Below are positions 43,309 to 48,384 of a stretch of 49,123 bases of DNA, piece by piece. The stretch comes from Bacteroidota bacterium. GTDB lineage: Bacteria; Bacteroidota; Bacteroidia; Cytophagales; UBA9547. Position 1 is the stretch's first letter. Each line of letters opens with the position of its first letter. The stretch is taken from positions 1-49,123 of the forward strand of contig RDZG01000086.1 in the NCBI GenBank assembly GCA_004293915.1, read 5' to 3'. The position numbers and the translations under genes were made by a program. A model generated the notes under the pieces. That model saw only the letters and a list, made by a program, of their open reading frames with translations. It was not told the DNA's origin and made no database searches.

Positions 43309-43363
43309 GGTTTAATTTAAGTACCTAATTTATTTTTTTGTAAAATATATTTTAGGAGGAAAA

Positions 43364-43405
43364 AAAAGATTGAATTTTTAAATTTCAAACGATTTTCAAT
43401 CTTTT
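43364..43405 (-). terminator. Hairpin terminator of the T9SS operon
   Basis: AAAAGATTGAA (43364-43374) and TTCAATCTTTT (43395-43405) form an 11-bp stem. On the minus strand it is followed by a run of T bases. It lies about 16 bases past the stop of the type B sorting-domain gene. Confidence 0.65.
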
Positions 43406-43420
43406 CAATCACTGACAACC

Positions 43421-45445
43421 CTACCTCACTACCATCACCGTTCCTTTTATGTTTTTGGTTTGGTTGTTGCAATCGGTGTAGGTTATGTGCCAAAAATAGA
43501 TGCCATCGGCTTGGCTTTGGGCATTCCAAGGTTCTGAGATTTCGGTTGTTTGATGCACAAGTGCACCCCAACGGTTGAAAATTGAGCGTTCGTAGTTGCT
43601 TACTGGCTCTATGGCTGGTAGCCATGTATCGTTTATGCCATCGCTATTGGGAGTAATAACATTGCTGATTTTTGAAATATCGGTTGGTGCCACAAAGGTA
43701 ATGTTTATAAAATTTGTATCGACAAAGCAACGATTGGAGCGAATGAGCGAATACCTGCCTGATTCTGTAATTTTAAGCTCTTTTTGGTTGCTGTTGTCTG
43801 ACCAACGAAGCAAATAATCACTTGGGGCTTTTGCTTGCAAGATAAGCTCCTTTTGGTGGCAAATTACGCTATCTGTGCCAAAGGGTTTGGCTTGGCGTTG
43901 TAAGATTTCTACCTTAAAAGTATCGTTTACAGTAAAACATTCGTTTGCCAACAACGCATAGTTGGTGCCATTGTTTATAGTTACAACTCCGCTTATTGTT
44001 TTGTTGTTGATTAAAACCGCTTCTGTTTTAGGTGGTAAAAGCAAAGTATTTTTGGCACACAAAAACGTATCGCTGATGGCAACAGGTTTGGCTGGTGGCA
44101 CGTATGCTGTATCGTACACATCGCAATAATTGTACCGCAAATGTATTTTTTGCTCTTGGCTAATATGCCGTTTTACGCCTGATAGTGTACTCATAAACCC
44201 ATCGGCAAAACGCCAGATGTATTGGTCATCACTAGCTAATTTTGGGACCTCAAACAGCACCGAATCGCCTATGCAGGTTTGCGAAATCTTAAAATCATAT
44301 TTGCGACCGTAGTAGTTTTCTACGGTGTTGGGGAATTTATAAACAGGGCTTTGCAAGGTATCAATTTGATTTTCTCTATAATCACAAGCTGGGCAGGGCA
44401 AGTCGGGTTTGTGAATAATGCTTAGAGCATTATCAAAATTCGAAATATATAAGCGATTATCAATACCTACTTTTGCTTGACGATGTTCTTTGTCTGTTAA
44501 TTTATAAAAAACACTTGTTTCTATATCTAATTGATAAGGTTTTATTGAACCAATTGGTGAATCTTTTGTGGATAAAATATACAAATACTTGCCATTAGGT
44601 GATAATGCAAAATTAAACTTATTTGCATCACTTGCCGAACGAATACTAACTCTTTCTAGACTAGAAACATCAAATTTTTTATAAAAAGTAGCCTTGCCTG
44701 AAACAGCATCAAAATCGAAGATGTAAATATAATACCAGTTTGAAATTGCTAATCGCTTACCATTATTGCTTAAAAAAATATTATATTGGTTATTTAATCG
44801 TGGGTTTCTACCCAGCACATTGGGTGTAAGTAAATCTAGCGTTTGCCAAGTCATAGATTGGTAGTTTGAATCAACTTTGGTTAAATACACAAAGCCTAAA
44901 CAATCAATTGCAGGTAGCCAAAAGCCATGGCAATTATCAGACCCTATTGCTGTACCAAAATGAATACATGTTGAATTATCTTCAGGAATTTCTAAAAACT
45001 CAACAATGTCGTAATTAACTGGATAGGCTTTGCTGGTATCTATAGTTTCTCTCACTACTCTGAATCTAGAATTACTTACATCAATTCGCAGATATTTTTT
45101 TTTTTGTGGTATCTTAAAAATATAGGAGTCAAAGTAACCATCGGAACCTGGAAATGGTCTGCCATTCCCCATAATTATATTACGTGGGGCATAATTTATG
45201 TATCTGTAATTTGAGTAAAAAAGTAAGGTGCCATTGCTATCTGAAAGGGTAGCAGGTGCAAGAATATAAGCTTCATTTATCCCATTTAGTGATGTGCCAG
45301 AAATGGATTTTATACCATTTAAGTCGAAACTAATTATTTGTAAATGAGGGATGTACCAATTGGCATTTTCGAGTTGGGCAAAAGTACATATAGCAAAAAA
45401 GAGCATGGCTATAAGCCATGCTCTTCTAAATATATAAACAAACAT
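43421..45445 (-). CDS. T9SS protein with type B (gliding-motility-associated) sorting domain
   Basis: This 674-residue protein has a signal peptide that ends LFFAICTFAQ. A propeller-like central region follows (repeats with DKEHRQAKVGIDNRLYISN). The C-terminal CHU_C/type B sorting domain (about 595-674) has NVITPNSDGINDTWLP, FNRWGALVHQTTE and ADGIYFWHITYTD. It should be exported by T9SS and stay at the cell surface. The ATG at 45445 overlaps the stop of the upstream gene by one base (TAATG). A strong hairpin lies inside its first 16 codons, so an ATG at 45406 is an alternative start. Confidence 0.85.
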   Translation of the reverse strand: MFVYIFRRAWLIAMLFFAICTFAQLENANWYIPHLQIISFDLNGIKSISGTSLNGINEAYILAPATLSDSNGTLLFYSNYRYINYAPRNIIMGNGRPFPGSDGYFDSYIFKIPQKKKYLRIDVSNSRFRVVRETIDTSKAYPVNYDIVEFLEIPEDNSTCIHFGTAIGSDNCHGFWLPAIDCLGFVYLTKVDSNYQSMTWQTLDLLTPNVLGRNPRLNNQYNIFLSNNGKRLAISNWYYIYIFDFDAVSGKATFYKKFDVSSLERVSIRSASDANKFNFALSPNGKYLYILSTKDSPIGSIKPYQLDIETSVFYKLTDKEHRQAKVGIDNRLYISNFDNALSIIHKPDLPCPACDYRENQIDTLQSPVYKFPNTVENYYGRKYDFKISQTCIGDSVLFEVPKLASDDQYIWRFADGFMSTLSGVKRHISQEQKIHLRYNYCDVYDTAYVPPAKPVAISDTFLCAKNTLLLPPKTEAVLINNKTISGVVTINNGTNYALLANECFTVNDTFKVEILQRQAKPFGTDSVICHQKELILQAKAPSDYLLRWSDNSNQKELKITESGRYSLIRSNRCFVDTNFINITFVAPTDISKISNVITPNSDGINDTWLPAIEPVSNYERSIFNRWGALVHQTTEISEPWNAQSQADGIYFWHITYTDCNNQTKNIKGTVMVVR
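45399..45425 (-). terminator. Terminator-like hairpin inside the signal-peptide codons of the type B T9SS gene
   Basis: AAGAGCATGGCT (45399-45410) and AGCCATGCTCTT (45414-45425) form a perfect 12-bp stem with a 3-base loop. In the minus-strand transcript the stem is followed by a T-run. It encodes part of the protein (RAWLIAML). It lies just downstream of the stop of the 979-residue gene. It looks like an intrinsic terminator that translation would have to pass. Confidence 0.75.
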
Positions 45446-48384
45446 TATTTATTTAAAATTAACTTAAATGTTTTTGTTCCAATTTTGATAAAATACATTC
45501 CTGATTGGTAGTTGCTCAAATCTATTTTAGTTTGCAAATCAGTGATGGTTTGTGTAATTACTTTTTTGCCTTGCATATCATACACTTCGAGTGTTGCATT
45601 CAGAAAAGTATCGTTCACCAAAACTTCAATCATGCCCGAGCTTGGGTTTGGATAAATCGAAACTTCATCTTGACTTTGGGTAGTTGTCAACGGAGTAGTT
45701 TCCTCATCATCACCTTTTCTAAACACCATTTCTACGCAAGTAGCTTGACTCCAAGAAGTTGCACTGCCAGATCTTGGCGATGTACCAGGTAAATAATCGT
45801 AATATAAGCCTATGCCGTTGAGGGCTGGCTTATAATTCGGGTCTACATCTCCTGCCAAATCAATTGGTGTTGCACCAGCACCATCGTTTAATCGCAAATA
45901 AGATACCAAACCAGTTGCAAAAGAAGTACCAGAAATAATTTTAGTACGCTTGTTTGTTTGAATAAAACTTTGCGATTTAGCTTCATTCCACAATCTGGCT
46001 TCTCTAATTACCCCCACAAAGTTGGCAATAGGCAAAAGATTGCCCAAGAGATCAGTAGTCTCTTCAGTATCAGTGCCAATTAAATAATGGTTGCCATTGT
46101 TTATATTCAAGGTGCCATTGATGGTTCTTGAACCAGCTGCTACTCCATTGATATAAAAAGTGATAGTAGTTCCATTTGAAACTACAGCCACATGATAACA
46201 TCTGTTTGTAGTTGTAAAAGACTCGCCAACAGACAAAGCATTAGATTCATAATAATTTCCAAATGAGTTAAAAACCAATTTATTGGTAGTAGGATTTACA
46301 CCAAATGTAAAACCTGCTTGTGTGCGTGTGTTCCAGTTTGAGAATATACTATACAGAGGTAAATTGTAGCTATTTGTTTTACCTTGCACCCAAGCTTCCA
46401 TAGTAAATTGTGAACTACCTCCCGAAATTATATTAAAGTTAAAACGGCTTGTACCAAAATTTACATTAGGGTCGGTAGCTGCTGGTACTCGAATGTAAGT
46501 TTTCCCTCTGTATGGCATACCTGTAGAATACAAATCAAACATGTAACCACCTGTTGATGCTGTGGCATCGCTTACCAAATTGAATGTTTTTGTTAACGAA
46601 TTTGGACAGCCAACTGGGGCATCGTTCCTTTTGGCTGTAACGGTAAATCCTTCAGATAAAATATTGCCAGTACGTACGGTAAATAAACCAGTTAGTGGAG
46701 TTGGATTATTTGATATTAAATAGCTTGAAACAGAGTTAGGCACTGTTTTGGTAGGAGCAACCGTAATTTCATAATTATATCCAGAGGGTTTCGCTTCCAT
46801 ACTTAAACTGGATTCTATCATAAATGGTCTACTTTGCGATTGATATATATCAGTTGGTATAAAATCTGTATTTTGTTGATAAGATTGAGTTACCCAATTT
46901 GAAGTTAAATTAGTGTTTGGATTGTCATTAAGTACACGAACAGCTAAATCAAATGATGTCTCTCTGTTAAAAGTAATCGAAACATTACTTGTGGTTTGGT
47001 TTTGCAAGGTTGTTGAATTGTTTAACGTAAATCTAGCAGTTGTTGCTGGCGATAATGTTCCTTTATTAAATAATTTCCATTCGTATTTTGCACCATACAC
47101 TGCTTGTAAATTTGTATTAGAAATTACACTTTCAAAAATACTGAATCCTGTTACATCACAAAATTGAGGTCTAGGCACAGGAGAAACCACTATTTTTGAA
47201 AACTGAGGAATTATTCTACCTGTGTAGGTTGTGGAGTTTCCAATAATACATCCCCCTCCGTGTATTGATGTAGCTTTTACTGTATAATATGGATAGAATT
47301 TTCCACCACTATTTGGAATTGTAAATGCAGAATTTGGTATAGAAACAGCAGATGTCCAAGTTGGAATAAACCTTCCGTCAGATGTAAACCTAGTATTCGT
47401 GGTATATACTGGCACCTGGTTATATCCACCATCGTTTGCCGTGTTAGATACTAGTACTTCCCATTTGATTTGACTTAAAATGCCATATGTACTAAGTTCA
47501 AACCTTTCTGCTTTTAAATTAGTAACATTCAAACTAAAAATAGTTGCGTTTGTAACAGGATTACCATTAGTAGTGGTTATGTTATTTAGCAATGGAAAAT
47601 CAATTGTATATTTTATAGGTTTTGATAGAGTTTGTTTTATACCACATCTAATATCTGTTTCTACTATTAAATCACCACAAAAAGGTTCATTCGGGTTTGC
47701 AGGTGTCAATATAATAGAATTCAAATTTGCAGATTCAACTATCCTACTAGTTGATGTAAGTCTTCTACCAAATAAATAATAAACAAAATTCCAGCCTGCT
47801 GGTATCGTCCATTTATATTTAGTTACTCCAGTGTTTCCAGCTATTGAATATGTATAGTCAGTTTGAGAAGTAGTTTGGTTTTCTGTACCTGTAATATTTC
47901 CAATATTATAATTTGCATCAATTGCATTTATATTTAAAAATGCAATTCCAGGACCTAACAAAGGAGTACAAATACCCAAAGGTCCTAATCCGTATGCATT
48001 TACAGCTAATAGTCCTGTTTGTACATTGTTTATTTGTACAGACTCGAAATCTCTACCATAGTTTCTTGGATCATCATCAGGATTAGGAAAGCTTTTTGGG
48101 GTGTCATAATAACAATTTGACCACACATTTGTGCTTTCTTTTTTAAGTTTACTTCCTGAAAATGGGGTGATTGTATTCGTTCCATTTGTATTCCATTTTA
48201 TACAAGATGTAGACCCACCAGTATAATAATTTACACTATAGGTTTCAGATGATCCTCTACATGGGGTAGCGTTTCCTAAAATTTTTAAATCTCTGCAATA
48301 GAAAGTAGTATTTCCTCCGTATCCAAAAGAGTTTGATATTGAAAGCATTAAAGCTATTATGATTGTTTTTATTAAATTTTTCAT
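45445..48384 (-). CDS. Large T9SS protein with LamG-like domain and type A sorting domain
   Basis: This protein has 979 residues and a Sec signal (MKNLIKTIIIALMLSISNSF). Several Ig/PKD-like segments fill about 150-600. A LamG/concanavalin-type jellyroll follows (about 640-830: FTMEAWVQGKTNSYNL, INGVAAGSRTINGTLNINNG, EARLWNEAKS). The T9SS type A sorting domain ends the protein (about 905-979: SIYPNPSSGMIEVLV, DMQGKKVI, YQSGMYFIKIG). The jellyroll suggests carbohydrate or cell-surface binding. It is the middle gene of a three-gene operon with an outer-membrane barrel gene upstream and a second T9SS protein downstream. Confidence 0.87.
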   Translation of the reverse strand: MKNLIKTIIIALMLSISNSFGYGGNTTFYCRDLKILGNATPCRGSSETYSVNYYTGGSTSCIKWNTNGTNTITPFSGSKLKKESTNVWSNCYYDTPKSFPNPDDDPRNYGRDFESVQINNVQTGLLAVNAYGLGPLGICTPLLGPGIAFLNINAIDANYNIGNITGTENQTTSQTDYTYSIAGNTGVTKYKWTIPAGWNFVYYLFGRRLTSTSRIVESANLNSIILTPANPNEPFCGDLIVETDIRCGIKQTLSKPIKYTIDFPLLNNITTTNGNPVTNATIFSLNVTNLKAERFELSTYGILSQIKWEVLVSNTANDGGYNQVPVYTTNTRFTSDGRFIPTWTSAVSIPNSAFTIPNSGGKFYPYYTVKATSIHGGGCIIGNSTTYTGRIIPQFSKIVVSPVPRPQFCDVTGFSIFESVISNTNLQAVYGAKYEWKLFNKGTLSPATTARFTLNNSTTLQNQTTSNVSITFNRETSFDLAVRVLNDNPNTNLTSNWVTQSYQQNTDFIPTDIYQSQSRPFMIESSLSMEAKPSGYNYEITVAPTKTVPNSVSSYLISNNPTPLTGLFTVRTGNILSEGFTVTAKRNDAPVGCPNSLTKTFNLVSDATASTGGYMFDLYSTGMPYRGKTYIRVPAATDPNVNFGTSRFNFNIISGGSSQFTMEAWVQGKTNSYNLPLYSIFSNWNTRTQAGFTFGVNPTTNKLVFNSFGNYYESNALSVGESFTTTNRCYHVAVVSNGTTITFYINGVAAGSRTINGTLNINNGNHYLIGTDTEETTDLLGNLLPIANFVGVIREARLWNEAKSQSFIQTNKRTKIISGTSFATGLVSYLRLNDGAGATPIDLAGDVDPNYKPALNGIGLYYDYLPGTSPRSGSATSWSQATCVEMVFRKGDDEETTPLTTTQSQDEVSIYPNPSSGMIEVLVNDTFLNATLEVYDMQGKKVITQTITDLQTKIDLSNYQSGMYFIKIGTKTFKLILNK

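Follow-up and report, generated by a model that had tools for sequence, protein, structure and literature searches.

A putative intrinsic terminator within the signal-peptide codons of a T9SS cargo gene

Intrinsic terminators in coding sequence are already known, and the hairpin described here probably joins them. In Escherichia coli, terminators within the first 100 bp of a coding region are efficient, with the first ribosome still behind the polymerase, and translation from a start codon 30 bp before the tR2 terminator cut termination by only about 10% (PMC4824070). According to the same source, a ribosome completing the upstream gene can repress a terminator located less than about 27 nt from the stop codon. 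This effect is strongly sequence-dependent: at 17 bp one series had a terminator efficiency of 0.12, and at 18 bp another series, with a different sequence, had 0.8 (PMC4824070). Upstream translation can also influence the intrinsic terminator of pyrBI-type attenuators, where the terminator lies in or after a leader ORF (PMC4824070). A terminator within codons is likewise described for brfA of Bacillus subtilis, a gene likened to arfA of E. coli, in which the terminator is placed near the 3' end, leads to a non-stop mRNA and controls the gene's own product via tmRNA (PMC6881298). Among titles and abstract openings we saw no previous account of a terminator within signal-peptide codons, which does not prove that none exists.

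The window analyzed here is the whole 49,123-nucleotide stretch of contig RDZG01000086.1 from a Bacteroidota bacterium. On its minus strand, gene 1 (45445..48384) encodes a T9SS type-A cargo protein of 979 aa with Laminin_G_3, PKD_6 and Por_Secre_tail domains, and gene 2 (43421..45445) encodes a T9SS type-B cargo protein of 674 aa with a weak PD40 match and a CHU_C domain, as taken from the ORF list, Pfam and NCBIfam (TIGR04183 and TIGR04131, respectively). C-terminal T9SS sorting domains were found in both proteins by Pfam and NCBIfam. An N-terminal signal peptide is recognized by hydropathy and motif in gene 2 and by hydropathy only in gene 1, which lacks the ..Q motif. The stop codon of gene 1 (TAA, 45447-45445) and the start codon of gene 2 (ATG, 45445-45443) have one base in common in a TAATG overlap (45443..45447, minus strand), an arrangement of stop and start codons characteristic of termination-reinitiation gene pairs. 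Such one-base overlaps are not rare, as they occur in 23 of 896 same-strand neighbor pairs in the genome sample.

A stem-loop (45399..45425, minus strand) begins 19 nt past the gene 1 stop and 20 nt past the A of the gene 2 ATG, and spans gene 2 codons 7-16. Read from 45425 to 45399 it is AAGAGCATGGCT-TAT-AGCCATGCTCTT, with a 3-nt loop and a stem of 12 Watson-Crick pairs, six of which are G-C. It is followed by a U-tract of six T (45395..45400, minus strand; codons 16 and 17, both F), whose first two bases are also paired in the stem, and hairpin and T-run together make up nt 21-51 of gene 2. The core was calculated at -16.1 kcal/mol, and the fold of 71 nt of RNA at -24.9 kcal/mol (z -5.4), which was equaled by none of 200 shuffles. 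Sequence and fold thus agree with the initial annotation, which described the one-base TAATG overlap and, after it, a perfect 12-bp hairpin with a T-run in the direction of the transcript. On the opposite (plus) strand the stem is followed by CTAAATATATAA, without a T-run; since the T-run is present on the minus strand only, the hairpin serves the direction of gene 1. Three features of an intrinsic terminator are present, namely a stable stem-loop with G-C pairs, a T-run directly after it and the usual distance from the stop codon. The hairpin was absent from the 12 terminator-like sites returned by a simple consensus scan (7.5 expected by chance), presumably because the stem was extended into the T-run.

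In our best reading, which we consider probable, the hairpin serves gene 1 as its intrinsic terminator and doubles as signal-peptide codons of gene 2, and gene 2 is expressed by read-through. Since the two genes meet at the gene 1 stop, one stretch of DNA would serve both as terminator and as signal-peptide code. The locus resembles W48 with tR2 of E. coli, where the terminator is 30 bp past a start codon in an operon and no stop precedes it; W48 is engineered, whereas the hairpin here is natural, has a 20-nt spacing and comes with a one-base gene overlap (PMC4824070). It would share with brfA an intrinsic terminator within codons and a non-stop mRNA, but here the terminator is at the 5' end of the gene and would end the upstream transcript. 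Unlike the pyrBI-type attenuators, it has no leader peptide, the upstream ORF being the 979-aa gene 1, and no exact antiterminator partner was detected when the 1,500 nt upstream were searched, for exact matches only, with 8-mers and 7-mers from the 3' arm.

The hairpin was compared with other terminators of its genome in a survey of 1,643,410 of the 3,848,767 bases, drawn from the longer contigs and those bearing T9SS genes. We retained perfect stems with a minimum of 8 bp and four G-C pairs, a loop of 3-10 nt and at least six T of nine, and in the first 849 kb (loops of 3-8 nt) 67 of 128 stems were discarded for want of a T-run. The survey yielded 129 strand-specific hairpin-plus-T sites, among which bidirectional hairpins are counted twice because the strands are counted separately; 113 are intergenic, nine lie in an opposite-strand gene and seven overlap a same-strand ORF, where genes are the longest ORFs from ATG only and their starts may be over-extended. 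Sixty-eight sites have a same-strand stop codon less than 100 nt before them, and their median stop-to-stem distance, 19 nt, is also that of the hairpin. Fifteen of the 129 sites have a G-C-bounded core at least as stable as this one and 80 match or exceed its T-run, while both values are at least this good in four (the hairpin itself is included in the first and last of these counts). Like the gene-end intrinsic terminators of this genome, it has a perfect GC-containing stem, a short loop, a T-run and a position 19 nt after a stop codon. Unlike them, it lies wholly within the first codons of the next gene, and its core is preceded by two A only, whereas many other surveyed sites show four or more. 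Among the 66 terminators that have a stop close upstream and are followed by a gene on the same strand, it is the extreme case of overlap: gene 2 starts 47 nt before the stem end, the next case is at -8 nt, and in all others the gene starts at least 12 nt past the stem. The hairpin has the build and the stop distance of an ordinary terminator, but its placement relative to the next gene is unusual.

Some further hairpins were seen along the way. The next-most overlapping site (16194-16222 of L117, contig C96) is one in which a thymidine kinase ORF (PF00265), its start set by the longest ATG frame, begins in the 3' arm of the terminator; two relatives of the same genus (L206 and L207) have a different terminator just before the thymidine kinase start. 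On contig C97 at about 25937 (about 5937 of L189), a T9SS gene is followed by a one-base-overlapping gene with a 10-bp stem in its first codons, which has three G-C pairs, a loop of 9 nt and no T-run after it. A 15-bp palindrome with eight G-C pairs (AACGCAGACAGGG...) and T-rich tails occurs twice, 1.5 kb apart, on contig C84 (about 397-429 and 1948-1980 of L186).

The stem exceeds what the peptide demands. When the first 25 codons of gene 2 were recoded synonymously, with codon usage taken from the genome sample, a stem of at least 12 bp arose in 25 of 200,000 draws (1.25e-4), a figure for the stem alone, before the T-run, the six G-C pairs and the 19-nt distance from the stop are counted. 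Rare codons of this genome are used in the hairpin, namely CTC (5% of its family), CTT (16%) and GCC (17%). A coincidence of codons, i.e., a chance stem in a T-rich signal-peptide region, would draw on the abundance of T-runs in such regions, as six-T runs occur in the first 75 nt of 11 of 48 T9SS genes versus three of 48 at nt 300-375. The stem alone is also less surprising when set against all 1,220 genes in the sample that encode 100 aa or more, two of which have so long a stem within their first 75 nt (in the second, on contig C27, the T-run is on the opposite strand). Against the recoding frequency, however, we find a coincidence hardly credible. A mobile or repeated palindrome was also considered and ruled out, as the motif GAGCATGGC-N3..8-GCCATGCTC has a single occurrence in its own genome (listed on both strands, being palindromic) and none in 18 relatives.

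The hairpin could instead act on translation or mRNA stability or as a DNA operator, and not terminate transcription. The hairpin sits just downstream of the position of an initiating ribosome, and perfect dyads can be protein sites, both of which would fit such a role. The T-run in one direction only, together with a position and an energy typical of terminators in this genome, argues otherwise, as does the lack of an Rfam family for the 501 bases searched, where none of the seven matches listed reached the gathering score (the best, AbsR25, had 34 bits vs 47). We regard a role of this kind as decidedly improbable.

A terminator at this position raises the question of where gene 2 begins. Its signal peptide (45374..45445, minus strand), assigned by motif and not by a dedicated predictor, is MFVYIFRRAWLIAMLFFAICTFA|Q with presumed cleavage after residue 23, and the hairpin DNA encodes its positively charged and hydrophobic parts (RRAWLIAMLFF). 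The two Winogradskyella homologues, 26 and 24% identical, start with MKANIFKLALSIIILVNTLCYAQLENANWY and MKINIHKIVTLVLIFPLLSNAQLENANWY, and gene 2 with MFVYIFRRAWLIAMLFFAICTFAQLENANWY; their signal peptides have 22 and 21 residues versus 23 in gene 2 and end in AQLENANWY, with the same motif and the same residues past the cleavage site as in gene 2. Up to codon 92, the only in-frame ATGs after the first are at codons 14 and 92, and a stop codon lies two codons before the first ATG. The initial annotation had offered, as an alternative, that the start was wrong and the hairpin a plain terminator, with gene 2 starting at the internal ATG at 45406 (codon 14); in a variant of this reading, gene 2 is transcribed independently from a promoter beside the hairpin. 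This could find a parallel in the thymidine kinase ORF on contig C96, which by its longest ATG frame begins inside the 3' arm of a terminator, and in the same gene, which starts just past a terminator in the two same-genus relatives. A peptide from 45406, however, would have ten residues before cleavage, none of them K or R, and would thus lack a positive n-region. In the 18 T9SS genes with the required cleavage motif, gene 2 among them, cleavage falls after residue 16 or later; these come from 49 examined T9SS genes, several others of which were over-extended, truncated or had another motif. Homologues from another lineage, moreover, keep the full-length peptide with matching residues. Given the full-length peptides of the homologues and the short, uncharged alternative, the annotated start of gene 2 (45445) appears sound, with strong support from homologous signal peptides, the signal-peptide lengths of this genome and the positions of ATG and stop codons. 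We consider a plain terminator followed by a new start or promoter very improbable. If the hairpin does terminate transcription, it also shows for annotation that finding a terminator just inside an ORF does not by itself make the start codon wrong.

An annotation error of the kind suspected here by the initial annotation probably exists in a distant homologue (L214), where a 9-bp stem with flanking A and T runs (AAAGAGGGCTTCGGCCCTCTTT) lies inside an over-extended ORF start and is probably a terminator ahead of the true start.

If gene 1's terminator doubles as signal-peptide codons, RNA polymerases leaving gene 1 would mostly stop in the T-run. Gene 2 would depend on the fraction that reads through, and the ratio of the two surface proteins would be low and roughly fixed. 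A ribosome that closely trails the polymerase to the gene 1 stop, 19 nt ahead of the stem, may raise read-through. The initial annotation had proposed a switch instead, in which ribosomes ending gene 1 restart at the overlapping ATG and cover the hairpin, so that transcription continues, and without which it stops. The TAATG overlap at the junction would suit this proposal, since overlapping stop and start codons have been linked to termination-reinitiation in a source that names ATGA and TGATG (PMC6728339), and a stem 20 nt past the A of the ATG could be melted by an elongating ribosome. The polymerase, however, has only about 50 nt to cover between the ATG and the T-run end, and the small loss of tR2 termination in E. 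coli with a start codon 30 bp upstream (PMC4824070) makes re-initiation kinetically unlikely as a control. The frequency of one-base overlaps and the presence of other terminators equally far from stop codons also indicate no special device. We consider a re-initiation switch quite unlikely; the likelier modulator of termination would be the ribosome ending gene 1, if the ribosome-polymerase kinetics borrowed from E. coli apply to this phylum. The proposed dependence of gene 2 expression on translation of gene 1 is therefore possible, though through that terminating ribosome and not through re-initiation.

From its ATG to the T-run end, the gene 2 frame is free of stop codons. Terminated gene 1 mRNAs would thus end in the first 16-17 codons of gene 2, and because they would hold its ATG and these codons but no stop, ribosomes initiating there would need rescue, e.g., by tmRNA. 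A tmRNA was found in the same genome on contig C55 (107 bits vs a gathering score of 47); in the control searches, all 14 control genomes had a match at E<=1 and nine were above the cut-off. A bolder version would hold that the DNA is selected both as a terminator and as signal-peptide code, that the protein ratio is set in the first 50 nt of gene 2 and increases as more ribosomes reach the gene 1 stop, and that every terminated gene 1 mRNA carries a stopless mini-ORF calling on ribosome rescue. Taken as a whole, we think this version unlikely.

If the hairpin terminates transcription, it would be a natural case of a gene-end signal written inside the export signal of the next gene and a compact means of fixing the ratio between neighboring surface proteins. 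The gene 1 mRNAs would then end with a start codon and no stop, placing a load on ribosome rescue.

Read-through need not be the only source of gene 2 transcripts. Sigma-70-like sites were at chance level (57 found vs 57.2 expected), and no convincing Bacteroidetes-type promoter was found near gene 2. This strand of the window carries 67 perfect TAnnTTTG -7 boxes, including one at 45524, and four promoter matches of 8 of 10 positions surround the gene 2 start, compared with 385 matches of at least 8 on the strand. The -33 element is reported not to be findable in Flavobacterium johnsoniae (as cited in PMC7366714). An independent promoter of gene 2 is possible, and nothing was found against it. 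At the other end of gene 2, before the atp operon, lies a candidate terminator (43361..43406, minus strand) in which a run of eight T follows a 12-bp, AT-rich stem enclosing a large loop. The stem appears in the fold, though with a z of only -1.1 and with 20 of 200 shuffles folding as well, and the site is probably a weaker terminator of gene 2.

The full gene 2 protein had matches in 57 of 59 genomes, its own included, nearly all of the listed matches being to the C-terminal sorting region, and the best match in a relative was 41% identical over residues 480-674. Nine family members, 290 further genomes of the order and 394 further genomes of the class yielded no orthologue. A search with the 470 aa that follow the signal peptide gave one marginal match in the nine family members (E 0.04, 44 aa), and the first 381 aa had matches in one of the 290 order genomes and 11 of the 394 class genomes, at 25-30% identity. 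Searches with gene 2 further returned two Winogradskyella MAGs among genome contigs and six plasmid records, all of the latter within residues 353-674.

Thirteen homologue loci were tried for the stem; L008 and L215 gave no start, and L218 and L220 were omitted because they match the inner part only. Of the 11 distant homologues whose start could be determined, none shows a stem above 6 bp in the 75 nt that follow a plausible start. Counted from the farthest upstream ATG, as was done for all, L214 showed the 9-bp stem described above, and from its inner ATG (MRLLILAT) the longest stem is 3 bp; L213 and L216 have stems of at most 4 bp from any ATG. As these distant homologues lack it, the stem is not a family trait as far as their sequences indicate, and probably arose in this lineage.

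In two relatives of the same genus, the region upstream of the atp operon did not show the gene pair, which may therefore be a recent arrival. A paralogue of gene 1 (C152:1-2058, L148) with 48% identity over residues 9-699 is located at the very end of its contig and ends with it, hence it offers no 3' end for comparison. Two C-terminal sorting domains, which share 58 and 57% identity with the gene 2 domain (L067, C142:2-229, and L069, C123:26706-26933), each lie at a contig end as well, and the assembly breaks may stem from repeated T9SS genes.
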